In this document: positions 245-28,423 of the stretch, piece by piece
Position numbering within the stretch: position 1 is the stretch's first letter
Layout of the letters: each line of letters opens with the position of its first letter
Origin: a virus
Direction: 5' to 3' (one strand)
DNA length: 29,867 bases
IMG/VR virus record: IMGVR_UViG_3300045931_000522
Location: 1 to 29,867 of that record
The notes under the pieces: generated by a model
Databases searched by the model: none
The model's input: the letters and a program-made list of their open reading frames with translations, nothing else
What the model was told of the DNA's origin: nothing
Translations under genes and position numbers: made by a program

Positions 245-296
245 GTGAGGCAACGCGCCGGAAACGCGCTTATCGGGTTGCAATCCCTAGCCTCAC
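245..296 (-). promoter_or_regulatory. Structured 5' leader of the HNH gene (copy 1)
   Basis: Seen on the minus strand just upstream of the HNH start. An outer 7-bp stem pairs 245-251 (GTGAGGC) with 290-296 (GCCTCAC). Inside are a hairpin (253-257 with 265-269, including one G-U) and a small GGG/CCC hairpin (275-277 with 285-287). A second copy at 19291-19341 before another HNH gene has outer arms GTGTGGC/GCCACAC. That is a compensatory change in both arms, which supports a folded RNA. Function unknown; it could stabilise the mRNA or regulate translation. Confidence 0.7.
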
Positions 297-303
297 GGCT
301 GCA

Positions 304-320
304 AGTATACTCTAAGTATA
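304..320 (-). promoter_or_regulatory. Candidate -10 boxes for the leftward HNH gene
   Basis: Two TATACT hexamers read on the minus strand (315-320, preceded by GG, and 304-309), within a direct repeat of AAGTATAC. They lie just upstream of the structured leader, as in the other HNH cassettes here. No good -35 is visible. The TATAC sequences could also serve the rightward tail-fibre gene. Confidence 0.4.
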
Positions 321-342
321 CCCTATGACTGGATAAACTACC

Positions 343-1407
343 ATGGCTCTTCCAAAATTCTATAAAGTTTGCCAAGATCAAAACGGAAATATAGTACCAC
401 AAGTACTATGTAGCGTCTTTAACCATGGCACAGCCGTGCTGGCGTCTCTCTACAACGATGACGCGGGGACCGTGCCCCTCAGCAATCCCATGACCAGCGA
501 TGCGCAGTACGGCTCGTTCAAGTTCTACGTGAATCCCGGCCATTATGATCTCACGTTCACCAAGCCGGGTTACACCTTTGAGCCGATCGACGATATGCAG
601 GTGCCGGCCGATACCGTGACGCTGGGCACCATGGCGACGCAGAACGCCAATGCGGTGGCGATTACGGGGGGCACGATTGCGCTGCTGGCGGCGGCTGGTG
701 GGGCCGTTCGGGTGGACGATGCGGGGGCCAGTGCGCAGGTGGCATTGCGCAGTCTCGTCACTGTCGGCGCGAGTAAATATAACGTGTTGGCTGACGGGAC
801 GGCGCAAAACACCTTTATTGGCAACGTCGGCCTGGGCACTTTCACCCCGAGCTACCCGCTCGATGTGACCGGCCAGGCGCGCATCACGGGGACGCTGGGG
901 ATTGGGACGGCGCCGAGTGCCAGTTATCACCTCTACATGGTGCGCAATAAAGCCAGCGTGCATGGCCTCGTCTTTCAGCCGACTGGCAGCGATGCGGGGA
1001 CGAATGAGGTCATGTTCCTCAACGTTGCTGGGACGATTGTTGGCAGCATTCAGAGCACCGCCGCCGCGACAAGCTTCAACACCTCATCCGATGCCCGCCT
1101 CAAACACGCCATCGCCCCGCTCAGCGGCTCGCTCGCCGTGCTCGCCGCGCTGCGTCCCGTGGCGTTCAGATGGAACGCGGATGACAGCGTGGGGCATGGC
1201 TTCCTCGCGCATGAATTACAGGCGACGATTCCCGAGGCTGTCAGTGGCCTGCCAGACGAGGTCAACCCCGATGGCTCGGTGAAACCACAACAGGTGGATC
1301 ACTCGCGCTTAGTGCCGTGGCTCACGGCGGTCTGTCAGGAGCTGGCGCAGCAGGTGCAGGTGCTGACGCAGCGGGTGAGTACGTTGGAAGAACAACTCGG
1401 TCTCTAG
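343..1407 (+). CDS. Tail fibre/spike with C-terminal S74 intramolecular chaperone
   Basis: A 354-residue structural protein, probably the host-recognition fibre. Residues 1-90 form an N-terminal beta domain ('NPGHYDLTFTKPGYTFEP') of the kind that attaches fibres to the tail. Residues 90-240 are Ala/Gly/Thr-rich repeat-like shaft. Residues about 245-354 match the peptidase S74 chaperone: the SSDARLK motif gives the expected Ser249 and Lys254 for self-cleavage, followed by the usual 'GFLAHELQ' segment and a coiled-coil tail. Known S74 domains trimerise, help the fibre fold, then cut themselves off before the serine. The Shine-Dalgarno is weak. The first about 90 bases are markedly AT-rich compared with the rest, suggesting recent replacement of the 5' end next to the HNH gene. 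Confidence 0.85.
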   Translation: MALPKFYKVCQDQNGNIVPQVLCSVFNHGTAVLASLYNDDAGTVPLSNPMTSDAQYGSFKFYVNPGHYDLTFTKPGYTFEPIDDMQVPADTVTLGTMATQNANAVAITGGTIALLAAAGGAVRVDDAGASAQVALRSLVTVGASKYNVLADGTAQNTFIGNVGLGTFTPSYPLDVTGQARITGTLGIGTAPSASYHLYMVRNKASVHGLVFQPTGSDAGTNEVMFLNVAGTIVGSIQSTAAATSFNTSSDARLKHAIAPLSGSLAVLAALRPVAFRWNADDSVGHGFLAHELQATIPEAVSGLPDEVNPDGSVKPQQVDHSRLVPWLTAVCQELAQQVQVLTQRVSTLEEQLGL

Positions 1408-1418
1408 GAGGCACGACC

Positions 1419-1706
1419 ATGCCGCTCTCCACGTTGGAACATGATACCTTGAGCAAGAGCTTTGCGATCTCCAAGCAACTGCTGGCCGACATCCAACCGA
1501 AGCTCGCCAGCCTGAACGAGATCTACAACGCCGCGGGCACCGGCGTCGGCTCGACCTTGACCCAGGCGGAACTCGATGAACTGCCCGAACTGAGCGGGTT
1601 GCAGAAGACCACGGTGGATGATGCCCTGTTTGCCATGAGTGGGATACTGACAAGCCTGACCAATGCGCAGGCGGCGCTGAACCAGATGGCAGCCCGCTTC
1701 CTCTAG
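1419..1706 (+). CDS. Small phage protein of unknown function
   Basis: A 95-residue protein. The start at 1419 is chosen because TAGGAGG lies just upstream, after the tail-fibre stop; a longer in-frame reading would overlap the fibre gene. It is largely helical and acidic-to-neutral, with no membrane segment or cysteines. It sits between the tail fibre and a membrane protein and is probably co-transcribed with both. I do not recognise a family. It may be a tail accessory protein or a lysis-cassette partner, but nothing in the sequence decides this. Confidence 0.7.
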   Translation: MPLSTLEHDTLSKSFAISKQLLADIQPKLASLNEIYNAAGTGVGSTLTQAELDELPELSGLQKTTVDDALFAMSGILTSLTNAQAALNQMAARFL

Positions 1707-1723
1707 CACGAAAGGCGGGCACC

Positions 1724-1963
1724 ATGGCCCTCCCCGGCCCCGAGTCCGCCCGCGGCTGGCTTGGCGTGCTCTACCCCCTGATGGAGCGCGGGGGCGGCGT
1801 GCTGGCGCTGGCTTTCTTACTGATCGGTGGAAGCATCGTGTGGTTTTTGATTGGGGCGCTTGAAAGGTCTGTGGTCAGAAATCATCAGTTGGTCGAGCGT
1901 TTGCAGGGCTGCATGAAAGAACAGGTGGAACTGGTGCTCCGATTGCGGGAGCACCAGCAGTAA
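1724..1963 (+). CDS. Small one-helix membrane protein, possible holin
   Basis: A 79-residue protein with one clear hydrophobic segment at about residues 25-46 ('VLALAFLLIGGSIVWFLIGA'), followed by a charged helix with heptad-like leucines. Its position after the tail fibre, its small size and the one-helix plus amphipathic tail are compatible with a holin or spanin-like lysis protein. No endolysin is visible next to it, so the lysis role is only a guess. The start follows the previous gene by 17 bases. The last codons also encode a perfect 10-bp hairpin. Confidence 0.6.
   Translation: MALPGPESARGWLGVLYPLMERGGGVLALAFLLIGGSIVWFLIGALERSVVRNHQLVERLQGCMKEQVELVLRLREHQQ
1931..1957. terminator. Hairpin between convergent genes, possible terminator
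   Basis: A perfect 10-bp stem (1931-1940 with 1948-1957, arms CTGGTGCTCC and GGAGCACCAG) with a 7-base loop. It overlaps the end of the membrane-protein gene, next to the end of the convergent regulator gene. There is no U-run on either side, so it is not a classical intrinsic terminator. Its place between converging genes is the main argument. Confidence 0.4.
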
Positions 1964-1965
1964 GC

Positions 1966-2244
1966 CTACAGTTGCCCCGCAAAAACTTCCATTGCTTGCT
2001 CTAAGCGGCGAAGATAGGCGAGGTTACGCTTGCTCGCCTTGTCCGACAAACGGTAGCGGTGCCCAGGGAACACCTCGACTTGATCGCAAATGCCCATGCC
2101 AACGAGCCGATGGGTGTGGAGACTGGCATTGCGTAGCGACATACCTAGTGCAGCAGAAATCTCTTTGTTCGTCTGCCATGTGTTCAACGTTTTCAGGTGA
2201 TGATAGACCCTGACTTGATTGATGCTGACTTCTAGTTGCTCCAT
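1966..2244 (-). CDS. Winged-helix DNA-binding regulator
   Basis: A 92-residue protein with a winged-helix fold signature. A helix-turn-helix spans roughly residues 15-50 ('TNKEISAALGMSLRNASLHT'), then a wing with 'VFPGHRYRLS'. The start at 2244 has GGAGG immediately upstream. It is probably a transcription factor acting on the short region between it and the small rightward reading frame at 2359, where an inverted repeat (TGTGCTA/TAGCACA) lies. It converges with the tail-fibre genes. No ligand-binding domain is present. The exact target is inferred. Confidence 0.7.
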   Translation of the reverse strand: MEQLEVSINQVRVYHHLKTLNTWQTNKEISAALGMSLRNASLHTHRLVGMGICDQVEVFPGHRYRLSDKASKRNLAYLRRLEQAMEVFAGQL

Positions 2245-2258
2245 TGTTCCTCCATGTA

Positions 2259-2290
2259 TGTGCTAACCAAAGATAACCAATGCTAGCACA
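2259..2290. promoter_or_regulatory. Candidate operator upstream of the winged-helix gene
   Basis: Inverted repeat TGTGCTA (2259-2265) and TAGCACA (2284-2290), overlapping the palindrome TGCTAGCA and two direct copies of TAACCAA. This AT-rich spacer is the only upstream region of the winged-helix gene, so autoregulation is plausible but unproven. Confidence 0.45.
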
Positions 2291-2309
2291 TGCTAAGAGG
2301 ATATGTCAA

Positions 2310-2636
2310 TCATGTCAAGTGTTTTGTGCACGGCGAGCGCACGCCATAAGGAGCGCCGATGCCTCCCTCTCGCACAGAAATCCTGTTTACGCTCGCGCTG
2401 ATCTTGCTGCTGGCCGTGGCCCTGACCATCGTCCTGCGGCCCACACGACAGACCACGACGGTCTTGTACGCGTCGCCTACGGGCGCAGGGTCCTCCTGCG
2501 CCGTGCGTATCGCCACAATAAGCGGGGATGGCTGGCGTGTGTCATACTGCGCCCCGCTGAAATTCTTATACCAGCAATCCGTGCAGATGTCGTCCGTGCC
2601 GTGGGCCGTGAGCCCGCAAATGGTGCAGTCAATCAT
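2310..2636 (-). CDS. Small zinc-ribbon protein with a chimeric C-terminus
   Basis: Starts at ATG 2634-2636, overlapping the stop of the upstream beta-helix gene as ATGA, so translation is probably coupled. The first about 45 residues carry CTIC and CTDCW, giving a CxxC/CxxC zinc-binding pattern like the small protein at 11020-11280. The rest of the 108-residue frame reads antisense through an inverted fragment of the beta-helix gene (2359-2505) and looks like read-through rather than native sequence. Function unknown; such tiny zinc ribbons are common in phage early operons. Confidence 0.55.
   Translation of the reverse strand: MIDCTICGLTAHGTDDICTDCWYKNFSGAQYDTRQPSPLIVAIRTAQEDPAPVGDAYKTVVVCRVGRRTMVRATASSKISASVNRISVREGGIGAPYGVRSPCTKHLT
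2359..2505 (+). pseudogene. Inverted N-terminal fragment of the beta-helix gene
   Basis: On the plus strand, a start with AAGGAG upstream opens a frame whose first about 48 residues match the N-terminus of the leftward beta-helix protein at 2633-4075. Both have a hydrophobic anchor, then LRPT, then a 'LYASPTG' block and a cysteine. After about 2505 the frame (open to 2805) only reads antisense through the zinc-ribbon gene and the 3' end of the beta-helix gene. The fragment is diverged at codon level, so the duplication is not recent. It could still express a short membrane peptide. Confidence 0.6.
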
Positions 2637-4665: not shown

Positions 4666-4765
4666 GGGGTCTCCTTATGCACGCGGTTCTCCTCTCGCTC
4701 CTCGTGCCTCGGTATGCTACCATACCCCCCGCTGCGCCTCGTCGGCGTGGCAGCCAGTGCATCGA

Positions 4766-4796: not shown

Positions 4797-4803
4797 GGGG
4801 GGC

Positions 4804-6809: not shown

Positions 6810-7844
6810 TTACAACTCTTGCCGTTGCTTCTGGATGTCGAGGAACCGAGCTGCTTCACGGACGCAGGCCGTGATGTCCTGTCGCAGCTCGTCCCCACTG
6901 AACCGGATAATGTGCCAGCCCAGTGCCTCGATCTCTCGTTGTCGTTGGCGATCCCGCGTAAAGGCGTTCCGGTCGCTATGGTAGGTATAGCCGTCCAGTT
7001 CGATGCCGACCTGGTACCGCGGGAAGGCAAAGTCGATGCGATAGGCACCATTTTTGATCGGCTGCTGGGACACCAGGGGATAGAGCAGGTGCAGACTCTG
7101 ACTGCGCCATTCTTCGGCAAACATGGCCTCGAGTGGCGAATCAAAGGTCTCGGGAAAGACATCCCAGCCTAACTCGGCAATGACCTCTTTCAAGGCGGCC
7201 ACAGGACCCTCCTCGCAGACCTGCGCCTCACAGGCAAAATAGGGAAACCAGAGTTCGTAGAGCGAATCGAAGACCACCTCATCTGGCTCTTCAGTGGCCA
7301 GTTCAGGCCGTTCCATCTGCGTCCAAAAATCGCCGCGGGCAAAGCGGACGGCGACACGCTTGCCTAACGCTTTCGCGTACCCGAGTTCGAAGAGCGTTCC
7401 ATAGCAATCCGGCCGATCAATCCAGGCGAATATCAGGTCTGCCTGCGCGATCGCTTGCAAGCATAACCGCGTCACGCGCTGCCGCGTCGTCGGGCGATCG
7501 CCGCCATGGGATGCCCCAGGCATCTCCCCAGGACACACCCCATGGACGTAGGCCAGCGGGCCGCCATGTCCGCCCCACGTATCGCTGAGATCGGTAAAAA
7601 ATGGCCCGACATAATGGAAGCGATCAAACACCGCGCGTGGAAGCATGGGCCAGGCCGTATGTCTGGTCAGCCACTCCTGCATCCACGGGGCATAGGCCAT
7701 CCCTTCGAGTCCGGCAACGATGTCGAGGCGCCAGTCATGGACGCCCTTATTCAAGCACGGGCGTATCTTGCCTGCGAGATATATACTGAGGCCAACACTG
7801 TCCATAGAACTATCCTGCTGTGCTGTGCTAGACTTACGGGGCAT
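6810..7844 (-). CDS. Deoxyribosyltransferase-like domain fused to VSR/DUF559-like nuclease
   Basis: A 344-residue protein. The start at 7844 (MPRKSS) has AGGAGG ten bases upstream; an upstream in-frame start would run into the repeat array and is rejected. Residues about 20-170 look like the nucleoside 2-deoxyribosyltransferase/DUF4406 fold: YLAG (22-25), then DLIFAWIDRPDCYG and GTLFELGYAKALGK with a candidate catalytic Glu153. Residues about 235-340 match very-short-patch-repair/DUF559-type PD-(D/E)XK nucleases: Asp271, then the IELDG motif (Glu282, Asp284) with a following His289 and 'LGWHIIRFSGDEL'. Known families: the first cleaves or swaps N-glycosidic bonds, the second nicks DNA. The combination suggests base-targeting or nucleotide-triggered DNA damage, possibly defence or inter-phage competition. 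Its GC looks lower than that of its neighbours. Confidence 0.75.
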   Translation of the reverse strand: MPRKSSTAQQDSSMDSVGLSIYLAGKIRPCLNKGVHDWRLDIVAGLEGMAYAPWMQEWLTRHTAWPMLPRAVFDRFHYVGPFFTDLSDTWGGHGGPLAYVHGVCPGEMPGASHGGDRPTTRQRVTRLCLQAIAQADLIFAWIDRPDCYGTLFELGYAKALGKRVAVRFARGDFWTQMERPELATEEPDEVVFDSLYELWFPYFACEAQVCEEGPVAALKEVIAELGWDVFPETFDSPLEAMFAEEWRSQSLHLLYPLVSQQPIKNGAYRIDFAFPRYQVGIELDGYTYHSDRNAFTRDRQRQREIEALGWHIIRFSGDELRQDITACVREAARFLDIQKQRQEL

Positions 7845-7878
7845 AGTCGGGTAACCTCCTGTTATCCCTATGTGTTCT

Positions 7879-7933
7879 GGCGAGAGGTGTTGGTTGGCGC
7901 CGGCCCTCTCGCCGTCCTCTTCGGTCCACATAA
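7879..7933 (-). promoter_or_regulatory. 5' hairpin leader of the fusion nuclease gene
   Basis: Perfect 9-bp stem: 7879-7887 (GGCGAGAGG) with 7905-7913 (CCTCTCGCC). Read on the minus strand it lies 24 bases before the AGGAGG and after a weak -10 candidate, TTATGT (7928-7933). The same GGCGAGAGG arm is in the hairpin before the HNH gene at 13950-14546, so the two leaders appear related. Confidence 0.6.
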
Positions 7934-7957
7934 CCAAGGATGCCACGCGCGTGTATG

Positions 7958-8137
7958 TGGCAATGTTGGCAATGTGGCAATCTTCACTAACGACGTAGAC
8001 TTCAAAAAATCGAGTTGGCAATCTTCACTAACGACGTAGACTTTTTGGTGGCACCCTTGGCACCCTTCATGTCCTTGCTGAAGATTGCCAACATTGCCAA
8101 CATTGCCAAGTCTGCCAACCTTGCCACCATTGCCAAC
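7958..8137. repeat. Iteron array, candidate replication origin
   Basis: Six tandem 9-base units of ATTGCCAAC type at exact 9-base spacing (8084-8137). Facing them in inverse orientation are TGGCAATGT units at 7958 and 7967, TGGCAATCT at 7975 and 8016, and two TGGCACCCT units (8049, 8058). A 28-base direct repeat (7975-8002 and 8016-8043) carries TGGCAATCTTC, and its inverse GAAGATTGCCA is at 8080-8090. The array directly abuts the primase-helicase gene. Dense repeats of a TTGGCA core beside a replication gene are the usual sign of an initiator-binding origin. No separate AT-rich melting region is obvious beyond the run at 8003-8010. Confidence 0.65.
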
Positions 8138-9930
8138 TACTCATCGTCCTCCTCTTCCATCCCTGGATAGCGGTCCCATGGTTCAAATTGTGGCAACCGC
8201 CAATACCAGAGATTTTTCTCTCGATCTTTACTGCTGAGAACGCCGAGTGCCGCTTTGGCGCGATTGAGCGTCCGCTCGGGAATGCCCAGCGCCTCGGCGG
8301 CCGCGGTGACCACCGTTGCCGGGTGCGGCCCATCCCGCAAATAGTCCTTGAGCCATTGCATCGCATTCTGACGCTGATGCTGGCGCTTGTTCGGCTGGAT
8401 GGCCGCCAGGCTATCCGCGTCGAGTTCGCAGACGCCGCACCACCGAAAGACATCATCGAGCAACTGAAACGTTTGGGATTTGCCAAACGGCGCGAGGGAG
8501 TTCTTGCTCTGGGCGATGACCCTGATGGTGGGATCATCAGGCGATTCGCCCAGCGCCAGGACCGAGCGGGCCGTGGCCGTGAAGTCGATACTGCCCTGGC
8601 CGCGGTACATGGCCTTGCCGCCCCCGCTCTTATTCCAGTGGCGGATGACCACCATGGCGCAGTGCTGGCGTTCGGCCACGAGCCCGAGCTGCCGCATGAG
8701 GGGCCGCACTTCATTGGCGCGGTGCATGTCCACCTCGGCGCCGAGGAAGGCGGAGAGCGGGTCCAGGATCACCAGGCGTGCCTTAAAATCCCGGACGGCC
8801 TCTTCCAGTAAGGTGAGATTCGCCATGGAGAACGGATGCATCTCCTGCTCATCGGCGGTCCAGCCCAGCACCGCCTTGATATGCTGCAGATCCGCGCCCA
8901 TCTTGGCGGCCCGGGGCACTAAGGTATCCCCATAGCCGTCCTCCGCCGTGATATAGAGGGTGGTAGCCGGATCACGCAGCCCGCCCATGATCTGCCCATT
9001 GGAGGCTGGTAAGCCGGTGCCGAGCGAGAGGGCTGTGGCAATAGCGAGCAGGAGGTAGGTCTTCCCTAAGCCTGGATCGCCCTCAAGAATGGTGAGCTTC
9101 CCGGTGGGAATATACGGATGCCAGAGCCAGTCGATGTGCTCGATCGGAATATCCGCAAAGGCCACGACCACCATGTGCGGGGCGGTGAGCACTGGCTTGG
9201 CATGGGCCGTGAAGGCAATCAGTTCCTCCTTCGTGTGCCCTGCAGCAAACCAGTCGGTGACATCGCCGCGCTCGGGCAATCCAGGCAGCTCGACACGGTG
9301 TAAGCGCTGCACGTACCCTGCCAGGCGCGTGGCAACCAGGTCCGCATGGTGGCGGCCGGCGGCATCGTTATCCGGCAGCAGAATGACGAGCGCATTCTTG
9401 AGGGCTACCGAGTAACTATCGTCCCACTTGCCGGCGCCCATGGGATTGGAGGTCGCGACGAAGCCATGCCGCCGCAGCGTCTCGACATCCTTTTCCCCTT
9501 CCACAAGATACACGGGCATACTGGCACTAATCGCCTTGAGGACTTCCGGCAAGCGATAGAGGACAGGCGTAATACCCTTCAGATCGTGAATCCACTTTCC
9601 AGGATGGACGGGATCGGGCCGGCGTTGAAAAAACCTCTTCTGGGCGCCAGCCGCACGCACGGCCTGAAACAACAGATGGCCACTGGCGTCATGGTAGGTG
9701 TAGAGAGCTTGGTACTGGGCCTCTCGCGGTGTCCGGTCGAGGTGGAGGGCATCAAAGAGGACTTTGCGATCACACCCGGCAAAACAATGAAAACAAATCT
9801 GGCCGTCCTCTTCCCACAGGTGTAACGACGTATCCGACTCGCCCTGATGCACCGGACACTTGGCCCGCCAGCCCCCTTTATCGGTATGCGCACCCTCACA
9901 TTGCTGGGCAATTTGGGCGAGGCTTGGCAT
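8137..9930 (-). CDS. Primase-helicase: CHC2 zinc finger, TOPRIM and RepA-type ATPase
   Basis: A 597-residue replication protein. Residues about 25-53 form a CHC2-type zinc finger (CPVH, then CFHCFAGC). Residues about 138-230 are a TOPRIM domain with VEGEKD (Glu144) and PDNDAAG (Asp187/Asp189). Residues about 275-470 are a RecA-fold helicase with Walker A GDPGLGKT (284-291), Walker B RLVILD (385-390) and 'VIRHWNKSG'. The C-terminus (about 525-580) looks like a winged helix ('GIPERTLNRAKAALGV') that may bind DNA. AAGGA precedes the start by nine bases. It probably acts at the iterons that abut its 3' end. Fused primase-helicases of this type are typical of phages and satellite elements. Confidence 0.92.
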   Translation of the reverse strand: MPSLAQIAQQCEGAHTDKGGWRAKCPVHQGESDTSLHLWEEDGQICFHCFAGCDRKVLFDALHLDRTPREAQYQALYTYHDASGHLLFQAVRAAGAQKRFFQRRPDPVHPGKWIHDLKGITPVLYRLPEVLKAISASMPVYLVEGEKDVETLRRHGFVATSNPMGAGKWDDSYSVALKNALVILLPDNDAAGRHHADLVATRLAGYVQRLHRVELPGLPERGDVTDWFAAGHTKEELIAFTAHAKPVLTAPHMVVVAFADIPIEHIDWLWHPYIPTGKLTILEGDPGLGKTYLLLAIATALSLGTGLPASNGQIMGGLRDPATTLYITAEDGYGDTLVPRAAKMGADLQHIKAVLGWTADEQEMHPFSMANLTLLEEAVRDFKARLVILDPLSAFLGAEVDMHRANEVRPLMRQLGLVAERQHCAMVVIRHWNKSGGGKAMYRGQGSIDFTATARSVLALGESPDDPTIRVIAQSKNSLAPFGKSQTFQLLDDVFRWCGVCELDADSLAAIQPNKRQHQRQNAMQWLKDYLRDGPHPATVVTAAAEALGIPERTLNRAKAALGVLSSKDREKNLWYWRLPQFEPWDRYPGMEEEDDE

Positions 9931-13971: not shown

Positions 13972-14546
13972 GGCTCTTCCTCGGGCAGATGTGTCCAGGT
14001 GCGACGCTCGATGATGTGGTCAATCGTGCTCTTATGCACGCCAAATTGTGCGGCGATTGTTGTGCGACGTTTATCGTATTGGTAGATGCGGCGGATTTCT
14101 TGCACTTGATCATCTGTAAGTTTGGCGCTGGCGTGTCGCTCTCCGCGTACCTGATATTCAGGATGTGTCGCTCGAAGTTGCTTGTGTATCTCTGAGCCAA
14201 GATAGCCGAGATGTCCTTTGGCTTTGGCATCCTGCACATTGTCATTCGGGGTGCCAGCCCATAGATGGTGAGGATTGACGCAGGTTTTGACATCACAACG
14301 ATGACAGACATACAGGCCAGGCAACAGTTCACCATAGGTCATGATATAGATAAAACGATGTGCACGAATGCCCTGACGGTGTATATGAAAATTGCCATAT
14401 CCGGATGAGAGGCTGGCTTGCCAGAGCCAACAACAGGCTGTGCAGGTGGCCCCATGGCCACAACGCGACACCTTGCTCCAGAAGTGCGCGAGCAGTTTCG
14501 TGGTATCGGAGAGGTCGAGTTTCCGTCTAGAATAGGTGCCAGCCAT
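13950..14546 (-). CDS. HNH homing endonuclease inserted in a SWIM gene
   Basis: A 198-residue protein. The start at 14546 (MAGTYS) is preferred for AAAGGA ten bases upstream. It carries the HNH_3 pattern: [14 protein letters not shown], then [15 protein letters not shown], then '[20 protein letters not shown]' with the catalytic His region, and [11 protein letters not shown]-terminal NUMOD-type helix-turn-helix follows (about 140-185, '[19 protein letters not shown]'), which binds the target. The gene carries its own -10 box and hairpin upstream. Its 3' end overlaps the displaced SWIM-gene end. Same family as the gene at 27704-28330. Confidence 0.88.
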
Positions 14547-14581
14547 GGCCGCGTATCCTTTCATACGGGGTGATGGTCAGC

Positions 14582-14630
14582 AGGGCGAGGGGATTGCCGT
14601 CCTCTCGCCTTGCGTTATTCCCTAATTATA
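14582..14630 (-). promoter_or_regulatory. Promoter -10 and 5' hairpin of the HNH cassette
   Basis: On the minus strand TATAAT (14625-14630), inside the end of the SWIM gene, is followed 13 bases later by a 12-bp hairpin (14582-14593 with 14600-14611, two G-U pairs) with loop CGGCAA. One arm contains GGCGAGAGG, identical to the arm before the fusion nuclease gene at 6810-7844. Transcripts would start with this hairpin near their 5' end. Confidence 0.6.
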
Positions 14631-15117: not shown

Positions 15118-15183
15118 AATATACAACCCTCCTTGAACGTTGTCAAATCATTCTTTGACAAATATCAAAGAAAAGTGTAAGAT
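15118..15183. promoter_or_regulatory. Symmetric divergent promoters sharing one operator
   Basis: Rightward: TTGACA (15155-15160), 17 bases, TAAGAT (15178-15183). Leftward: TTGACA (minus strand, 15141-15146), 17 bases, TATATT (15118-15123). The two -35 boxes are the arms of an 8-bp inverted repeat, TTGTCAAA (15140-15147) and TTTGACAA (15154-15161), with a 6-base spacer. One dimer bound here would block both promoters. The XRE protein encoded from 15203 is the likely binder. Confidence 0.85.
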
Positions 15184-15202: not shown

Positions 15203-15418
15203 ATGCAGCCTATTGGTGATCGTATACGTATCGAACGAGAACGCTACGGCATGAGCCAGGCCGAGCTTGCCAGGCGGATCGAGATTAGCAAGACGGCGAT
15301 GAATGATATTGAACGAGGGAGAACCGCGAACCCTGGCGTGCTGCATGTGGTGGCGATTGCAGACACCTTGCATCTGAGTGTCGATACCTTGCTTGGTCGG
15401 GAGGTCTCCCATGTATAG
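15203..15418 (+). CDS. XRE-family repressor
   Basis: A 71-residue protein. The start at 15203 has AAGGAGG six bases upstream. Nearly the whole protein is an HTH_3 domain: 'IGDRIRIERERYGMSQAELA', 'ISKTAMNDIERGR' and 'VVAIADTLHLSVDTLLG'. It is the first gene after a consensus promoter whose -35 lies in an inverted repeat, so it probably represses itself and the leftward genes. Its stop overlaps the next gene's ATG, coupling its level to that of the GIY-YIG-like protein. Confidence 0.9.
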   Translation: MQPIGDRIRIERERYGMSQAELARRIEISKTAMNDIERGRTANPGVLHVVAIADTLHLSVDTLLGREVSHV

Positions 15419-15980
15419 CGGTGGAACGATCTATGCCATTGCGGCAGAGGGGACAACGCTCGTCAAGATTGGGTCAACGACCACAGCCGTTGACAAGCGG
15501 CTAAAGAGTCTACAAACAGGGCAGCCATTCCCCTTGTCTGTCCTCGCTGCTATCCCTGTCGATGGCGACGTGCTACGCATTGAACGGCAAGTGCATGCCT
15601 TTCTGGCCGAGGAACGGCGACGAGGAGAGTGGTTTGACATTGCCCTCGATGGTGAGTCACTTGCTGCCCTGGTCGTGCGTGCTGTGCAATTCGTGCAGCA
15701 GCAACTGGAGGAGGAACATCCGCCCCACAATCGACCATGGCCCAAGTGGCTCGGGAACCAACTCCGCAAAGCCCGTATTGATAAATCGCTGAGTCAGCAA
15801 GAGTTATCCGCCCGTACTGGCTTAAGCCAGAAGCATCTCAGTGCCCTGGAATGTGATCAGATGATGCCCAAGTGGCCCACGATGGTAAAATTGGCCTTAG
15901 AGTTGGATATTGACTTGAACGCCCTGGCCTGGGCATGGTCTCGCTTGCCAGCGGAGGATGCGGCGGTGCCCCATGCCTGA
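15411..15980 (+). CDS. GIY-YIG-like (MUG113/T5orf172) domain fused to XRE helix-turn-helix
   Basis: A 189-residue protein. The start at 15411 overlaps the previous stop. Residues about 5-85 match the MUG113/T5orf172 branch of GIY-YIG nucleases: 'IYAIAAEGTTLVKIGSTT', 'RLKSLQTGQPFPLSVLAAIP' and 'ERQVHAFLAEERRRGEWFDI'. Residues about 115-180 are a second XRE-type HTH ('LRKARIDKSLSQQELSARTG'). Known proteins of this kind are nuclease-like domains of uncertain activity, often found in phages and fused to DNA-binding modules. The fusion suggests a site-directed DNA nicking or regulatory enzyme. Translational coupling to the small repressor is notable. Confidence 0.85.
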   Translation: MYSGGTIYAIAAEGTTLVKIGSTTTAVDKRLKSLQTGQPFPLSVLAAIPVDGDVLRIERQVHAFLAEERRRGEWFDIALDGESLAALVVRAVQFVQQQLEEEHPPHNRPWPKWLGNQLRKARIDKSLSQQELSARTGLSQKHLSALECDQMMPKWPTMVKLALELDIDLNALAWAWSRLPAEDAAVPHA

Positions 15981-17159: not shown

Positions 17160-18713
17160 ATGGCCACCCTGCCCTTTCCCGTCACCCCCGGCGTGCAGCG
17201 CCTCGCCCGCGTCATGCTCGAGCGCCGCCAGGCCGCTGACCGCCTGCGGCAGTTCCAGCCGCTGCCCAAACAACTGCCCTTCATCCGCGCCGTCCTCACC
17301 GACGCGGCGCCGTGGGAGCACTGGTACTGCGCGGCGAATCGCGCCGGCAAGAGTGCCGCCGGGGCCTACTGCGGGGCCACGCTGGCGCGCTTCGGGCCGG
17401 ACGATCCCCGGCCGGCCATCGGTCCGTCCGCCGTGGTCTATGACCGCGCGACGTCCGGGTGGGTGGTGGGCCCCGATTTCCCGACCCTGCGTGACGTGCT
17501 CATGCCGACCTATTTTGACAACGGCTATCTCTCGCCCACGCAGGACATCGGCCCGTTCATCCCGGCGAGTGAGATTGCGCATTGGAGCTGGGACAGCCAG
17601 GTGCTCAAGCTGAAAAATGGGTCGCTCCTGGGCTTTAAGTCGAACGAACAGGACACCGTGAAATTCGCCGCCGCCGGGAAGGATTGGGTGCACTTCGACG
17701 AAGAGCCCAAGCGCACCGGGTATGAGGAAGTGACGCTGCGCGTCGCGGGTGGGCGCCACCTGCGCATCTTCGGCACGGCCACGCTGTTGCCGCCGGAAGG
17801 CGTTGTGGGCGGTATTAGCTGGATTTATGACGACATCATCCAGCCGTGGCAAGCGCGCCAGCGGACCGATGTCGCGGTGTACGGCGCGTCCATCTACGAT
17901 AACCCCTACATCCTGCCCGAAGAGATTGCGCGGCTCGAAGCCCGCTACCCGGTGGGCTCGCTGCAACGGCGCATCCGGCTGGAAGGCGAGTGGCTGCCGG
18001 GGATGACGGGCGTGCCGGTGTACGGCTCCTTTGAACGTGAAGTCCATGTGAAACGACAGCCCGCGTTATCCCCGAATCGGCCCTTATTATTCGCCCTGGA
18101 CTTCAATGTTGATCCGTTTGTGGGCATTGTGGGACAACAGGACCGCACACGTTTCTCCATCGTGCGAGAGTTCGTCTTAGAGCCTGGCTCTATTCCGCAG
18201 ATGGTAGAGGCTTTCCGCAGTGCCTATCCAAGTCATGCACACGAAATATGGCTCTACGGCGACGCCACAGGTGGCGCGCGGCATGTGCAGGAAGGCAAAA
18301 GTGATTGGCGGGTGGTGTTAGAGTACTTCAAAACCTATCCGAGTCCCATTAAGTTGCGTATACCCGACGCCAATCCGCCGGTGCATGCGCGCATTAACGC
18401 CGTCAATATGGCGCTGATGGACGAATTTGGGGCGTCGCGGTTGTATATTGACCCTGCCTGTGTCGAACTCATTGCTGATCTTGAACGGGTTATTAGTGAT
18501 GGCCGTGGTGGCATTCTGAAGAGCTACAGCCAACGCGACCCCTACAGTAAACGTACGCATTTATCGGACGCACTGGGGTACCTCATCGCCCACGCCGCGC
18601 CGGTGGGATCGGCCTCGCTTGCCGGCGTCCGGCGGCGCCAACAGATCCCACGTCCCGCATATGGCAATCAGGTTCCAGGGAGGACCTCACAGGCTATCGC
18701 GCATCGCAGGTAA
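17160..18713 (+). CDS. terL: Terminase large subunit
   Basis: A 517-residue packaging motor. The ATPase has Walker A CAANRAGKS (57-65) and Walker B with Asp180-Glu181 in 'DWVHFDEEP'. The C-terminal RNase-H-like nuclease has acidic residues at Asp314 ('FALDFNVDP'), Asp368 ('LYGDATGG') and Asp470 ('HLSDALGYL'). It cuts concatemers and pumps DNA through the portal at 19568-21679. The stretch from about 18040 to 18590 is less GC-rich, with more TTA/TTG-type codons than the first half, suggesting replacement next to the HNH gene whose end overlaps this gene by 20 bases. Confidence 0.95.
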   Translation: MATLPFPVTPGVQRLARVMLERRQAADRLRQFQPLPKQLPFIRAVLTDAAPWEHWYCAANRAGKSAAGAYCGATLARFGPDDPRPAIGPSAVVYDRATSGWVVGPDFPTLRDVLMPTYFDNGYLSPTQDIGPFIPASEIAHWSWDSQVLKLKNGSLLGFKSNEQDTVKFAAAGKDWVHFDEEPKRTGYEEVTLRVAGGRHLRIFGTATLLPPEGVVGGISWIYDDIIQPWQARQRTDVAVYGASIYDNPYILPEEIARLEARYPVGSLQRRIRLEGEWLPGMTGVPVYGSFEREVHVKRQPALSPNRPLLFALDFNVDPFVGIVGQQDRTRFSIVREFVLEPGSIPQMVEAFRSAYPSHAHEIWLYGDATGGARHVQEGKSDWRVVLEYFKTYPSPIKLRIPDANPPVHARINAVNMALMDEFGASRLYIDPACVELIADLERVISDGRGGILKSYSQRDPYSKRTHLSDALGYLIAHAAPVGSASLAGVRRRQQIPRPAYGNQVPGRTSQAIAHRR

Positions 18714-19254
18714 GGAGCCATGGTTGCACAGGGCCTGGAATGGGCCGAACCCATTTCTTGCGGTTGCATGAGTGGCAGGAAGCTACGACGTTCCAGAGGG
18801 TGTGGTTGCCACCATCGATAATCGGTGTGATGTGGTCAATGCACAGGATGTGGGTGCCGTGATGACACTCTGCACATTCCGGCTTGTAGTACGGACAATA
18901 GGCGCAGACCCCATGGGCCATGGTGAGAACAAACACGCGTTGGCGTGCGGTAAAATCCCGCCGAGTAACGCGTTTATGGCGTGCACGACGTTGTTGTTGC
19001 GCATTGCGAGCGGCTTCAGGGTGGCGTTTTGCCGAGGCTTTTTTGATGGCTTTCCGCTCGGGGGTTGTATTCAAGACAAGGATGTCATCGCGGTTGGCGT
19101 AGTAGTACGTCAGGCCCCGCTGGCGGCGATCCGCCAGGTGGCGTACGTAATTACGGCGATTGGATGCTTTGGTAGCTTCAGGATGAGCGGCACGCCATTG
19201 TCTCGCATAGCGGCGGCCGCGCGCACGACGCTTCTCAGGGTCTTTGTACGGCAT
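18694..19254 (-). CDS. HNH homing endonuclease between terminase and portal
   Basis: A 186-residue protein. The start at 19254 has GGAGGT eight bases upstream. It begins MPYKDPEKRR like the partial gene at 1-211, with a long basic N-terminal region that may bind DNA. The HNH core is near the end: CAYC and CAEC zinc-binding pairs, 'LCIDHITPIIDGGNHTLWN' with the DH pair, and 'SCHSCNRKKW'. It is antisense to the packaging genes and overlaps the terL end. It has a structured leader with a compensatory change relative to copy 1 (245-296) and its own TATAAT upstream. Confidence 0.9.
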   Translation of the reverse strand: MPYKDPEKRRARGRRYARQWRAAHPEATKASNRRNYVRHLADRRQRGLTYYYANRDDILVLNTTPERKAIKKASAKRHPEAARNAQQQRRARHKRVTRRDFTARQRVFVLTMAHGVCAYCPYYKPECAECHHGTHILCIDHITPIIDGGNHTLWNVVASCHSCNRKKWVRPIPGPVQPWLLTCDAR

Positions 19255-19290
19255 GAGGACCAACCTCCGGTTGTTGGTTCCGGTTTGGGT

Positions 19291-19341
19291 GTGTGGCAAC
19301 GCGCCGGAAACGCGCTTTCGGGGTCGACTCCCTAGCCACAC
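19291..19341 (-). promoter_or_regulatory. Structured 5' leader of the HNH gene (copy 2)
   Basis: Outer stem GTGTGGC (19291-19297) with GCCACAC (19335-19341); inner hairpin CGCG/CGCG (19300-19303 and 19311-19314) and a GGG/CCC hairpin. It has the same layout as 245-296, with the inner 19 bases identical and the outer arm changed in both strands (T-A to A-T). A TATAAT on the minus strand (19375-19380) lies 33 bases upstream and could start the transcript. Confidence 0.7.
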
Positions 19342-19397
19342 GCCGTGAGTGTAGCACACGGCTGTGTATGTGTAATTATACCAAATTGGCGTAGGTA

Positions 19398-22643: not shown

Positions 22644-22646
22644 CGT

Positions 22647-23067: not shown

Positions 23068-23069
23068 CT

Positions 23070-23852: not shown

Positions 23853-23885
23853 CGTCACGTATGTGACTAGAAAGGTGAGGGCTAC

Positions 23886-24845: not shown

Positions 24846-24931
24846 ACTAGTACACTATTAATAATAAGCATACAGGCAGATTTATTTGTCAAATTGGTAT
24901 GTATTCATGGTGTGTAGACTCCTGTGCATGG

Positions 24932-24937
24932 TATAAT
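24932..24937 (+). promoter_or_regulatory. -10 box of the HNH gene at 24960
   Basis: TATAAT (24932-24937), preceded by GG, 22 bases before the ATG, with GAAAGGAGG in between. No good -35 is visible. It lies in an AT-rich gap of about 114 bases after the capsid gene. This HNH gene has no clear hairpin leader, unlike the leftward ones. Confidence 0.5.
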
Positions 24938-24959
24938 TTTATCATGAAAGGAGGGCCAT

Positions 24960-25907
24960 ATGCCCCATGATACAACATGTCCGATTTGTGGTACAGCCAT
25001 GCGTGTTCCTGATCGTACTACACGTGATCAGGCGCATTATTGTTCACGGGCGTGTGCCAATAAGGCACGGCGCAAACATATCCCGCTCGAAGGGACGTGT
25101 AAAGTGTGTGGCGCTGTCTTTGTCTACGTGGAAAATCCTGCATTGCCCGGTCGCGGCCAGTATTGTAGTCGTGCCTGTGCCAATGAGGGCCAACGGGTGC
25201 ATCGTACTGCATTGTGTGTGCACTGTGGCACCACGTTTCCCCTGTTGTACAAAACGCCGCCAAAGCCCGGCAGTGGGCAATATTGTTCGATGACCTGTGC
25301 GAGGGCTGCACGGACGGAGAAAGTACGGGTGGATCGTATCTGCCTCGTCTGTGAGCAACCATTCTGGGTCTACGAAAGTCAGTTGCGCCGGGAAGGGCCT
25401 GGGCAAAAAGGTGTCTTTTGCTCGCGCGCATGTGCGGTAAAAGGCCGCCAGAAGAACACCTATAACAATACCACGCGCCGGCGGACGGCGACGTATCAGT
25501 ATCATCGCCGTGGGTATGTTATGGCCTATGCCCCAGATCATCCAAGTGTGCAGGAACGGATCAAGCGTGGTAGTCGGCATTACTATGTGATGGAGCACCG
25601 GCTTGTAATGGAACAGGCCCTCGGACGATATTTGCATCCCTGGGAGAATGTGCATCACAAGAATGGCGTGCGCCATGATAATCGTCTGGAGAATCTCGAA
25701 GTGTGGGTGAAAGCGCAACCTGCAGGGCAGACGAATGAGTATCTCGATTATGTGCTCATCCTCTTGCGGCAATTGCGAGAGGCAGGGATACGCCCGGAGG
25801 GATGGCCAGGCACGCAAGCTCCAGGGCCGTTTGTTGTCGCCATACCCGCACCTGTCCATCCTGAGCAACTCGGCTTTCTGCTGCCCCAACCGGAGGGCAC
25901 GCACTAG
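24960..25907 (+). CDS. HNH homing endonuclease with four zinc knuckles
   Basis: A 315-residue protein starting at ATG 24960 with AAAGGAGG upstream. The N-terminal about 160 residues are four copies of a zinc-finger unit: CxxC, about 15-25 residues, then C-S-x-x-C (Cys7/10 and the CSRAC, CSRAC, CSMTC and CSRAC pairs). A basic linker follows. The HNH core is at about 200-260: '[20 protein letters not shown]', then [21 protein letters not shown] with the catalytic His. The zinc array probably binds a long DNA target. Its position between capsid and the next structural gene fits intronless homing. Confidence 0.9.
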
Positions 25908-25917
25908 GAGTATGCCT

Positions 25918-26334
25918 ATGGGCTATGCCACTGGAACGTTTACGCAACCCGTGATTGCCGCTGCGGACCTCAGCGCTACGGGTGACAAGGCCACCTGGAC
26001 CCCTACTGGTCTGCCGGCCACGCTGCGCCGCCTGGCGGTCATCGTCACGACTGCAGTGACCACGCCGGCGGCCGTCGTCTCGCTCGATCTGCGCCCCACC
26101 GCTGGCAGTAACACCGGGCGCGTCACGGGCGGCGTCGGGACCCTTACCGTGCCAGCGAGCAGCCCGCTCGGGCGCGTCGTCTACAAAGCCCTGAACAGTA
26201 CGCTCCTCCCTGGCCAGGAGGTCGTCGTCAACGTCACGGTTGCCGCTGGCGCGGGCGTGGTCGATGTGCGTCTGGACCTGGTGCCGGTCTCCGACACGCC
26301 CCTCAACAACCCGCGCATGGTCGCCAGCGCGTAG
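25918..26334 (+). CDS. Head decoration-like protein, first of a paralogous pair
   Basis: A 138-residue protein. The start at 25918 is preferred: an ATG at 25912 is too close to TAGGAG (25905-25910). It has repeated Ala/Thr/Val beta strands ('LRRLAVIVTTAVTTPAAVVS', 'DLRPTAGSNTGRVTGGVGTL') and ends MVASA. The next gene, 26349-26768, has the same layout and the same ending, so the pair arose by duplication. A small beta-rich protein after the capsid gene suggests a decoration or cement protein. Confidence 0.7.
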   Translation: MGYATGTFTQPVIAAADLSATGDKATWTPTGLPATLRRLAVIVTTAVTTPAAVVSLDLRPTAGSNTGRVTGGVGTLTVPASSPLGRVVYKALNSTLLPGQEVVVNVTVAAGAGVVDVRLDLVPVSDTPLNNPRMVASA

Positions 26335-26348
26335 AAAGGACGGATGCC

Positions 26349-26768
26349 TTGAGCTATTCGCACACCATGCACGACACGCTCATTGCCTCGGCGGTGGCCT
26401 TGACGCCGACGGGTGCCAAGGGCACCTGGCCGGTCACCGGGCTCGCCAAAACCATTCGGCGGCTCTCGGCCGTGGTCACCACCGCGACGACGGCCGCCGA
26501 CCCGTGTATCCTGTCGTTCGATCTCCGCGTCACGGCCGGGAGTGATACCGGCCGCGTCACGGCGGGCGTCGGCACGCTCACGCTTCCCGGCGGCACGGTG
26601 GCCGGGACCGTCGTGTATAAAAACGTCAATGTGACCGTGCGTCCAGGCCAGGAAGTGGTGCTGACGGCGACGGATGCCACAGCGGCAGGCGTCGCCACGG
26701 TGGGGATGACCGTCGAGGAAGCCTGGGAAACACCCGCGAATGTGGCGGCGATGGTCGCCAGCGCCTAG
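26349..26768 (+). CDS. Head decoration-like protein, second of the pair
   Basis: A 139-residue protein. I take TTG 26349 as the start, with AAAGGA eight bases upstream; an ATG at 26367 is possible. It is paralogous to 25918-26334, with 'RRLSAVVTTATTAADPCILS', 'DLRVTAGSDTGRVTAGVGTL' and a PGQEV motif, and ends MVASA. Probable decoration or fibre-base protein, paired with its neighbour. The exact role is unknown. Confidence 0.7.
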   Translation: MSYSHTMHDTLIASAVALTPTGAKGTWPVTGLAKTIRRLSAVVTTATTAADPCILSFDLRVTAGSDTGRVTAGVGTLTLPGGTVAGTVVYKNVNVTVRPGQEVVLTATDATAAGVATVGMTVEEAWETPANVAAMVASA

Positions 26769-26776
26769 GAGGTTGT

Positions 26777-27139
26777 ATGGCCGAGGAAGCCCCTGCCGCC
26801 CTCGCCCCCGAGGAAGAGGCGGCTGCGATGCTGTACAGTGTGTACCGCCTTCAGGTGGGCGGGGTGAACGAAGCCGGGCTTGGCATGCCAGCCTGGGCGG
26901 ACCTCTCTATCCCCTTGCACAACGCCTGGATGGCTGTGGCGGAGGCGGCCAGTGGTGGTGCGCCCCCTGTGCAAGCGCCAGCCCCATCCGCCGGGCTGTG
27001 GACGCAGGAGGACCTGGAGCAATTGACCGTCAGCGACTTGCGCGAACTGGCCACGACGGGGGGCGTCAGCGTGGCGTCGAGTGCGACCAAGCAGCAGCTC
27101 ATTGATGCGCTCCTGGCCAGCCAGGCGGCCTCACCGTGA
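26777..27139 (+). CDS. Hypothetical protein with SAP/Rho-N-like C-terminus
   Basis: A 120-residue protein with TAGGAGG upstream. The N-terminus is acidic and Ala-rich; a Pro/Ala linker follows. The last 40 residues ('DLEQLTVSDLRELATTGGVS' and 'ATKQQLIDALLAS') look like a SAP or Rho-N helix-extension-helix fold that binds nucleic acid. Its stop overlaps the next start (GTGA). A role near head completion is inferred from position. Confidence 0.65.
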   Translation: MAEEAPAALAPEEEAAAMLYSVYRLQVGGVNEAGLGMPAWADLSIPLHNAWMAVAEAASGGAPPVQAPAPSAGLWTQEDLEQLTVSDLRELATTGGVSVASSATKQQLIDALLASQAASP

Positions 27140-27696
27140 GCGCGCCGGCGTTCTCTCTGCGGGTCCACGTCTACGAAGACAACCGCCAGGACGGGACGCG
27201 CACGCTGGTGGCCTATACGCCGTTCCTGCGCCTCGGGGCCCCGTCAGGCAGTGGGCATGCCGGGGAGGTGTGTTACCTCCAGCACGGCTATGTCTATGGC
27301 GAAGGGGGTGATCCCTACGACGTGGAGGACCTGCCGGACTGGTTCGGGGCGGCCCTGGCCGCGCTGACGCCGCAGGCGCGGGTGGATGTGGGGTTTACCG
27401 CAGATCGGGTGCAGTGGTACACCGGTGGGGACGGTCCAAACGACGTGTGGCCGTCGTCAGGGGAGGCGGCAGCGCCGGTGCCCGTGCTGCCGTCGTCACC
27501 GACGTTCCCGCCGGGCTTCAAGCCTGACCAGTGGGTGCTGGGATTTCTCTGTTCGCGCCAGCACGACTACGCGGACACGGGGCGGAGCCGCTACAACAAA
27601 CAGATGAAGTGTGTGGACTGTGAGGCGCTGCGGAAGCACGTCAAGCCGAAACAGGCCAAGGCTCCAGAGGCCAAACACCTCATGGCGACGACGTAA
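27136..27696 (+). CDS. Hypothetical structural-region protein
   Basis: A 186-residue protein starting with GTG 27136, overlapping the previous stop. The first half is beta-rich, with Tyr/Gly ('GEVCYLQHGYVYGEGGDPY'); a Pro-rich linker (about 105-135) follows, then a C-terminal part with Cys/His residues ('FLCSRQHDY', 'KCVDCEALRK') that may bind metal. No family recognised. It converges with the HNH gene that ends 8 bases away. Confidence 0.6.
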   Translation: MSAPAFSLRVHVYEDNRQDGTRTLVAYTPFLRLGAPSGSGHAGEVCYLQHGYVYGEGGDPYDVEDLPDWFGAALAALTPQARVDVGFTADRVQWYTGGDGPNDVWPSSGEAAAPVPVLPSSPTFPPGFKPDQWVLGFLCSRQHDYADTGRSRYNKQMKCVDCEALRKHVKPKQAKAPEAKHLMATT

Positions 27697-27703
27697 CGGG
27701 GCG

Positions 27704-28330
27704 TCAGTTGTCAGGGACATGTCGCCAGGTCTTGCGGTGGATGATGGAGGAAATGGCGCTATGCGATACGCCGAACATGTCGCCAATGGCTTGTTGACTC
27801 AAGGTCCCATTGCGCTGTAGATGACGGATTTCCCTGACCTGCTCCGCAGTCAGTTTGGCGAATGTGGTCTTTTCTCCGCGAGGGACTCTTTCAGGATGAA
27901 GGCGAGCGCCACTCTTTGCACCACGGGGGATACGTTCTGGGCGCGTATGCACCCAATGACGGCCTTTGCGCACCATGTCTTGCATATTGTCGGTGCGTGT
28001 GCCAAGGAACAGGTGGACAGGGCGGACACACGCTGGTGTATCGCAGCGGTGGAGCACCCACAATCCATCAGGAATAGGGCCAAAGGTCAGTTCATAGGCG
28101 AGGCGATGGACCAGGATGGCTTTCGAGTCAACAGTTATGGTGCCATAGCCAGCCGTACTGTGCGAGCCCATCCACAGCCAGCAGGTGTCTGTAATCTTGA
28201 CCCGCGCCCACAAGCGTTCGACAAGGCTCATATGTTTGAGCCTGGCAAAGTGGGAAAGTTTCCACGCCCGACCCGGCGCGCATACCTCTTGGCAACCGCA
28301 GGAACACCATCTATCTTTGTTCTCAGCCAT
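27704..28330 (-). CDS. HNH homing endonuclease with C-terminal HTH
   Basis: A 208-residue protein. The start at 28330 has GAGGT nine bases upstream. The N-terminus has a Cys cluster (CSCGCQEVC) that may bind zinc. The HNH_3 core has 'CWLWMGSHSTAGYGTI', 'LVHRLAYELTFGPIPDGLWV' and 'LHRCDTPACVRPVHLFLGT', then DNMQDMVRKG. The last about 60 residues are a NUMOD-type HTH ('QQAIGDMFGVSHSAISSIIH'). Same family as the HNH gene at 13950-14546. It is antisense to the structural genes and has its own -10 box (28418-28423) and 14-bp hairpin upstream. Confidence 0.9.
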   Translation of the reverse strand: MAENKDRWCSCGCQEVCAPGRAWKLSHFARLKHMSLVERLWARVKITDTCWLWMGSHSTAGYGTITVDSKAILVHRLAYELTFGPIPDGLWVLHRCDTPACVRPVHLFLGTRTDNMQDMVRKGRHWVHTRPERIPRGAKSGARLHPERVPRGEKTTFAKLTAEQVREIRHLQRNGTLSQQAIGDMFGVSHSAISSIIHRKTWRHVPDN

Positions 28331-28365
28331 GACATCTGCACCTCGTATGCAGCATGGAGTGGTCA

Positions 28366-28423
28366 GAGCCCTGGTGGTGTATCAGCACTGCCAGGGCTCG
28401 TTTGTGTAGATGGATAAATTGTA
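28366..28423 (-). promoter_or_regulatory. -10 box and 5' hairpin of the HNH gene
   Basis: A stem of about 14 bp starts from GAGCCCTGG (28366-28374) with CCAGGGCTC (28391-28399) and extends inward with G-U pairs to a 6-base loop (28380-28385). On the minus strand TACAAT (28418-28423), preceded by GG, is 18 bases upstream. The layout -10, hairpin, Shine-Dalgarno, ATG matches the other leftward HNH cassettes. Confidence 0.6.

Follow-up and report, generated by a model that had tools for sequence, protein, structure and literature searches.

Two of the five HNH genes in the window, the whole 29,867-nucleotide stretch of virus record IMGVR_UViG_3300045931_000522 that was analysed, are preceded by homologous leaders (positions 209-296 and 19253-19341, both on the minus strand; leaders 1 and 3). 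We consider it somewhat better than an even chance that these are cis-acting 5′ leaders related to int-alpA, in which the loop of helix P3 works as an anti-Shine-Dalgarno (anti-SD) translational switch. Their structure, family membership and 5′-UTR position are well supported. From 5′ to 3′, each is composed of a three-way junction, a linker, an SD-like strand, a hairpin whose loop holds the SD, and the AUG (Table 1).

Table 1. Positions of the leaders, hairpins and HNH genes in the window
Feature	Position	Strand	Evidence or remark
Leader 1 -10-like box TATACT	304-309	-	ends 7 nt before P1; position enriched in relatives
Leader 1 junction	245-296	-	fold, R1/R2 matches, covariation
Leader 1 P1	290-296/245-251	-	
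Leader 1 P2	285-287/275-277, loop AUUGCAA 278-284	-	
Leader 1 P3	265-270/252-257, loop UUUCCGG 258-264	-	
Leader 1 SD-like strand CCGGA	234-238	-	complementary to P3 loop
Leader 1 P4 hairpin CCATC/GATGG, SD GACGGAG in loop	216-232	-	fold, covariation
HNH gene 1	2-211, ATG at 211	-	truncated by window end
Leader 3 -10-like box TACACT	19348-19353	-	weak, 4/6 letters of TATAAT; ends 6 nt before P1
Leader 3 upstream promoter-like site, perfect TATAAT and -35-like box	19375-19380	-	
Leader 3 junction	19291-19341	-	fold, R1/R2 matches, covariation
Leader 3 P1	19335-19341/19291-19297	-	
Leader 3 P2 loop AGUCGAC	19323-19329	-	
Leader 3 P3 loop UUUCCGG	19304-19310	-	
Leader 3 SD-like strand CCGGAA	19278-19283	-	
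Leader 3 P4 hairpin CCAAC/GTTGG, SD CCGGAG in loop	19260-19277	-	sequence; helix 4 covariation
HNH gene 3	18694-19254	-	PF01844
Hairpin before HNH gene 2	14582-14611	-	real; outside leader 1/3 family (fold, R1/R2)
Hairpin before HNH gene 4	28366-28399	-	real; outside leader 1/3 family; terminator-like on + strand
Fifth HNH gene	24960-25907	+	missed in the preliminary description

The preliminary description had placed four hairpins, with -10-like boxes and SD-ATG starts, before minus-strand HNH genes, and all of these were found in the sequence where it had put them. The compensatory outer pair distinguishing the hairpins at 245-296 (GTGAGGC/GCCTCAC) and 19291-19341 (GTGTGGC/GCCACAC) was confirmed. 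The idea of one shared cassette holds for these two, which are related, but not for the hairpins before genes 2 and 4, which are unrelated to them: at E ≤ 1, the covariance models R1 and R2 matched only the former two within the window, which rules out a single family for all four. The reported spacing of 15-33 bases between -10 box and hairpin was measured from upstream boxes, and the two homologous leaders have nearer ones. The single 5′ hairpin is real, but three features had been overlooked: a further hairpin whose loop contains the SD, the three-way junction, and its pseudoknot partner. Only 0 to 7 of 200 shuffles of each hairpin were equally stable; the background is GC-rich, however, and 5.5-14 % of 52-nt minus-strand segments fold at least as stably as the four hairpins, so stability was rejected as standalone evidence.

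The leader family comprises 60 matches (58 distinct) in 54 records picked as carriers, fetched with patterns derived from leaders 1 and 3 and the Rfam consensus, one of which contained the SD-like strand. Across the 60 matches, in an alignment that was itself fitted to the structure, 93.9 % of the helix cells were paired, compared with 34-41 % when the helices were slid. All 21 helix pairs changed on both sides (419 such cells), and in each of the four helices the covariation follows the pairing register of the RNA, G-U pairs included. A DNA-level element, either an operator or a nuclease recognition site, could be read into P2 and its loop, which are near-palindromic as DNA and close to the promoter; the RNA-register covariation and the relation of loop, strand and SD described below, which is sensible in RNA only, make it extremely improbable. 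The SD hairpin was scored in 20 of 22 members (stems averaged 5.05 bp, compared with 3.16; 0 of 200 shuffles), some of the stems chosen (L271, L273, L239) not being the SD hairpin. In the tests on 22 members the start of leader 1 was taken at an ATG inside P4, which gave it the wrong strand and left it counted as having no SD hairpin.

R2 at E ≤ 1 matched 0 of 72 loci fetched with an overly loose pattern (negative set), and 1 match was obtained across 289 genomes with strict filters. Six pattern matches in genome contigs (L104-L109) appeared to be chance by eye, and R2 matches none of them. A sequence search of leader 1 against phages gave nothing beyond four 22-nt matches at E 4.

The preliminary description had held that finding no further copies before endonuclease genes in a covariance search would speak against it; many such copies were found. 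Its view that HNH genes are preceded by a 5′-proximal RNA element that moves as a promoter-leader unit was borne out, and blastn of the window against stretches of a second phage gave matches of about 108-138 bp, extending from the promoter through the first codons. The leader is not tied to HNH genes. Nucleases account for 20 of the 41 downstream genes tested, and such leaders also precede genes of the GIY-YIG, TnpB and antirepressor types as well as unknown ones.

On sequence grounds, the family of leaders 1 and 3 is a divergent sister of int-alpA (RF02996). The two leaders score 21.9 and 24.8 bits, respectively, below the Rfam gathering score of 35.8, and neither was matched when the whole window was scanned with RF02996 at E ≤ 1. 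Linking relatives (L222, L205, L254, L255, L243 and L262) exceed 35.8 and also match R1. In one set of leader-bearing loci 10 of 16 exceed the cut-off; in another, 3 exceed it and 7 fall below. The P1/P2/P3 junction with its CUAG...CGA core is common to int-alpA and the leaders, the alignment and helices place the three-stem structure of the RF02996 model in the window leaders, and R2, built from phage leaders, recovers E. coli int-alpA copies. The int-alpA model has 71 positions and stops before the SD hairpin. The RF02996 profile search gave no match in 3 genomes or 14 controls. The element was reportedly first described by Weinberg et al. in 2017; our literature search, which did not reach that description, found no functional study of int-alpA.

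An SD and ORF start directly follow the leader in 52 of the 58 distinct leaders, compared with 15.7 % at random places, a control which, like the shuffles, takes no account of relatedness. Two of the six leaders scored without a start (L243 and L322) do have one, missed by the word list or limits. This position argues for cis rather than trans action. Rfam types int-alpA as an sRNA, and the leaders could accordingly be read as trans-acting sRNAs with an incidental downstream ORF; the conserved SD hairpin, the covariation of P4 and the ORF starts directly downstream render this very unlikely. A strong -10 box lies 4-8 nt upstream of P1 in 20 of the 58 leaders, against 0.77 boxes per offset elsewhere, and the transcript probably begins near the base of P1. 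A +1 at P1 is not certain, since 38 of the 58 have no strong box where one would be expected, and in leader 3 a site some 33 nt farther upstream looks more like a promoter.

Two segments are complementary to the P3 loop and covary with it: the SD-like strand and the true SD. Among 22 members, one per P3 loop, loops scored 14.2 with their own SD-like strand and 9.2 with the strands of other members, and 12.8 against 10.0 with the SD. In 11 new members the corresponding values were 14.5 against 9.3 for the strand and 14.4 against 10.2 for the SD. The new set was drawn from 21 matches, of which four were dropped for lack of P3, three for lack of an ATG and one for a repeated loop; two of the remaining 13 were not new, L261 repeating a first-set leader and L265 one of L254. 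In each of the four tests 0 of 20,000 permutations reached the own value, although relatedness still inflates these tests. Both complementarities, like the helices, the 5′-UTR position and the P2 palindromes, are supported by the sequences.

Duplex energies were predicted for 33 members, with better-chosen gene starts than in the 22-member tests. Pairing with the strand averaged -7.3 kcal/mol and pairing with the SD -8.0 kcal/mol, the latter mean being lowered by L274 and L242, and the stronger predicted partner was the SD in 19 members and the strand in 14. The strand is a weak partner in some members (L270, L284, L273), and some pairing with an SD is to be expected of every anti-SD-like loop (permuted mean -5.45 kcal/mol). 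The strand and the SD region share at least four letters in 28 of the 33.

The shape of the leader suggests a built-in switch over the ribosome start. The RNA would fold into P1, P2 and P3 around the conserved junction, with the P3 loop as an internal anti-SD. Pairing of this loop with the SD-like strand just after P1 would form a pseudoknot that leaves the true SD free and allows translation; if the P3 loop instead paired with the true SD, which lies in the loop of P4, translation would be blocked. Because the predicted energies of the two states are similar, a modest signal could shift the equilibrium between them. We infer the switching itself, its on-state and direction, and a trigger. The plain protective hairpin of the preliminary description seems too simple, as the conserved junction letters, the pseudoknot partner and the loop-SD covariation favour control of translation. 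A passive 5′ cap or insulator, whose fold protects the mRNA and displays the SD in a loop wherever it lands, without switching, would agree with P1 near the likely 5′ end and with the portable promoter-leader unit; it is nonetheless unlikely, needing neither the loop-SD covariation nor the repeated SD-like strand nor the P2 palindromes. With the P3 loop as a translational switch, int-alpA, catalogued without function, would gain a likely job as a 5′ leader controlling translation. The genes so controlled, nuclease genes in many cases, would be those of mobile elements such as phages and islands, and the switch could explain how mobile genes remain portable yet restrained.

In riboswitches of the SAM-II and preQ1 type, a pseudoknot near the SD controls translation. 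By analogy, leaders 1 and 3 would resemble them in this respect, but they have two competing partners and no known ligand, and serve phage and mobile genes. According to PMC3014915, T4-type homing endonuclease mRNAs (I-TevI, mobE, segB) sequester the SD and/or AUG in a helix. As with leaders 1 and 3, these appear to be selfish nuclease genes with RNA structure around their translation start. What the leaders add is a junction at the 5′ end, a pseudoknot and another strand resembling the SD. The SD of the leaders lies mainly in the P4 loop and not wholly in a stem. The tisB mRNA, according to PMC7708055, has a 5′ pseudoknot, a structured SD and a standby site about 100 nt from the ribosome binding site; the leaders are compact (about 90 nt in all) and their P3 loop also matches the SD. 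A standby site or enhancer of this kind, at which 30S/S1 would be held by the 5′ pseudoknot and the single-stranded linker while the SD hairpin is still closed, is rather improbable: it has in its favour the architecture shared with tisB and the often A/U-rich linkers, but the tisB site is about 100 nt upstream and the P3 loop-SD covariation is not needed for it.

Of 10 distinct 7-nt P2 loop sequences, 7 are self-complementary; this count is biased by one fetch pattern that fixed the loop as UUGCAA, and it was therefore also made with that loop left out. Virus record G292 carries four leaders with four different palindromes (UUGCAA, UUCGAA, UCAUGA and CGAUCG). Such loops may let two copies of one leader kiss. 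A new class of switch, in which the leader self-dimerises through the P2 loop and so shifts the P3 loop between SD-like strand and SD, is an inferred and doubtful extension. Each gene would then sense the abundance of its own transcript, and the four leaders of G292 would dimerise separately. Such self-recognition, if it occurs, would be a rare natural case among mRNA leaders.

HNH genes 2 and 4 may have a leader type of their own. A symR match at 14541-14616 on the plus strand (42.2 bits, cut-off 61) was treated as chance. Neither leader junction is among the predicted intrinsic terminators (GC hairpin and U run); plus-strand predictions include the P4 hairpin of leader 1 (211-237) and the hairpin before gene 4, in scans that exceed shuffles modestly. 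HEARO/OMEGA RNA accompanies IscB-type HNH nucleases; no HEARO match was obtained in the window at E ≤ 1, and the window HNH proteins match PF01844 or HNH_3 and are not IscB-type. Bases 1-24900 of the window had no near match among named phages. Phage relatives of HNH gene 4 exist among the matches listed by the search, and HNH gene 1 is complete in locus L034 (203 aa, PF01844). The fifth HNH gene has a TATAAT followed by its ATG 22 nt on, without a leader of the leader 1/3 type.

All four hairpins that the preliminary description placed before leftward HNH genes were found in the window, and each folds better than most of its own shuffles. As 5.5-14% of the 52-nt windows on the minus strand fold at least as well, hairpin stability by itself is little evidence. 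The compensatory change between leaders 1 and 3, the 5′ RNA leaders of HNH genes 1 and 3, was confirmed (88% identity over 40 nt). The proposed single shared cassette held for these two; the hairpins before HNH genes 2 and 4 matched neither R1 nor R2, the covariance models of the leader family. Nor is a hairpin a rule for HNH genes, since the fifth, the only rightward one, has only 22 nt between TATAAT and ATG.

The first search pattern, 19 bases taken from leader 3, matched the sister contig of the window and also a second phage, represented by five near-identical contigs. Blastn matches between the window and this phage span 108-138 bp, from the promoter to the first codons, and the outer stem again differs in sequence with pairing kept. 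The family was enlarged using looser patterns, descriptor scans, R1 and R2; the model search detected two members, in L047 and L090, within loci that had been retrieved by protein. The final search gave 60 matches, with 54 records selected as carriers of a copy and 58 distinct rows. Both-side changes occur in 21/21 pairs, and 93.9% of cells are paired against 34-41% in slid controls, a wide margin, in an alignment fitted to the proposed structure and thus biased in favour of pairing.

Coordinates of leader elements, hairpins and associated genes
Feature	Sequence	Positions	Strand	Remarks
Leader 1 junction, HNH gene 1	window	245-296	-	
Hairpin before HNH gene 2	window	14582-14611	-	
Leader 3 junction, HNH gene 3	window	19291-19341	-	
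Fifth HNH gene	window	24960-25907	+	HNH_3 and FCS-type zinc-finger match; own TATAAT close to ATG; without hairpin leader
Hairpin before HNH gene 4	window	28366-28399	-	
Leader	L047	3283-3369		model match, E 9.5e-10; also present in L026
Leader	L090	1587-1670		model match, E 5.6e-6
TnpB gene with same leader	L250 (viral contig)	8090-9371	-	OrfB_IS605 with Cas12f1-like TNB domain

From 5′ to 3′, the leader consists of a -10 box, P1, UA, P2 (3-4 bp), a GA-rich joint, P3, P1′, a linker, a strand resembling the Shine-Dalgarno sequence (SD), the P4 hairpin, whose loop contains the SD, and AUG. P1 probably lies at or near the transcript 5′ end, because a box with at least 5/6 letters of TATAAT stands 4-8 nt before it in 20/58 leaders, against 0.77 boxes per offset elsewhere. 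In leader 3 the box at this position is weak, and a better promoter-like site lies farther upstream. P4 is 93.5% paired, with both-side changes in 5/5 pairs; a separate scan found the SD hairpin in 20/22 members (mean stem 5.05 bp, 3.16 in shuffles).

The P3 loop matches its own downstream strand, and its own SD, better than those of other members, both in 22 members and in 11 new ones. No permutation reached the own value in any of the four tests (0/20000 each), where keeping one member per P3 loop removed relatedness only partly. In 33 members, the mean duplex energy of the P3 loop is -8.05 kcal/mol with its own SD and -5.45 kcal/mol with the SDs of other members. Predicted duplexes with the two partners are similar (means of -7.3 for the strand and -8.0 kcal/mol for the SD), the SD being stronger in 19 members and the strand in 14. 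Strand and SD region have at least four letters in common in 28/33 members, and the same word stands at both sites in L256 (UCGUAGG) and L247 (UGAAAGG). A two-state switch would require such complementarity to two partners.

The leader is best supported as a cis-acting translational control element. Comparison among members shows the helices, the pseudoknot partner, the loop-SD complementarity and the position; a switch, with its direction and trigger, and dimerisation are inferred. The closest precedents are ribosome-binding-site structures of T4-type homing endonucleases (PMC3014915) and the tisB pseudoknot leader (PMC7708055).

A perfectly self-complementary hexamer occurs in 7/10 distinct 7-nt P2 loops. 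Without UUGCAA, which one search pattern imposed, the count is 6/9; composition-preserving shuffles gave 0.79, and none of the 20000 exceeded 5. Another six distinct loops, not 7 nt long (E. coli-type, L311, L090), are not perfect palindromes, though two of them, CGGCCA and AGGCCA, have a palindromic centre. The window holds two leader copies, and one 35-kb virus record (G292; loci L266, L322) holds four, whose self-complementary P2 loops all differ. The natural reading is that P2 loops may form kissing dimers.

As the preliminary description had anticipated, the covariance search found copies before endonuclease genes. We compared 41 downstream proteins, two of them from the window, with Pfam and/or PHROGs. 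Nucleases account for 20 (HNH types, endonuclease VII, GIY-YIG, TnpB), and L090 is the only one of these loci that was retrieved by searching with a nuclease protein. The remaining 21, some of them truncated at locus ends, include AntA, Rha, KilA-N, a resolvase, a helicase, a Mu F-like protein, an HTH_36 protein, island proteins (phrog_7144) and unknowns.

The family is related to int-alpA (RF02996), typed as sRNA in Rfam. Eight loci exceed its cut-off (L222, L231, L205, L251, L255, L243, L254, L262), as do five island or phage copies; other leader-bearing loci in two of the same scans missed it (7 in one, 6 in the other). R2, built from phage leaders, recovers E. coli and Klebsiella phage copies (rough E-values: L238, 1.1e-5; L240, 2.2e-5; L239, 0.0015). 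Because leaders 1 and 3 score 21.9 and 24.8 bits, below the cut-off of 35.8, and neither was listed as RF02996 in an Rfam scan of the whole window, we call them a divergent sister branch of int-alpA, not curated members. An SD and ORF start directly follow the leader in 52/58 distinct copies, compared with 15.7% of positions chosen at random within these loci. The CDS that comes next begins 24-32 nt past the end of the BLAST match in three E. coli or Klebsiella phage records. The int-alpA islands L238 and L296 also have C4 antisense RNA matches (two and one, respectively) and isrK matches; in L238 these fall within the Icd-like genes.

The window is the 29,867-base sequence of a virus record. 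It is identical to L002 and L025, two stretches fetched from the 37,062-base contig IMGVR_UViG_3300045944_000553; another stretch of that contig, L034, contains the complete HNH gene 1 (203 aa, PF01844). Tail, portal and major head genes were the structural genes identified, all in rightward orientation. The region 14541-14616 (+), antisense to the beginning of HNH gene 2, matches Rfam symR below cut-off (42.2 bits, cut-off 61) and is probably a pair of stable hairpins, not a SymR. An exact 28-nt direct repeat (7975-8043, spacing 41) lies near the start of ORF 6810-8021, part of it recurring inverted at 8071-8092. Opposed promoter-like sites (15118-15183) stand upstream of a single ORF with T5orf172/MUG113 and HTH domains at 15378-15980 (+).
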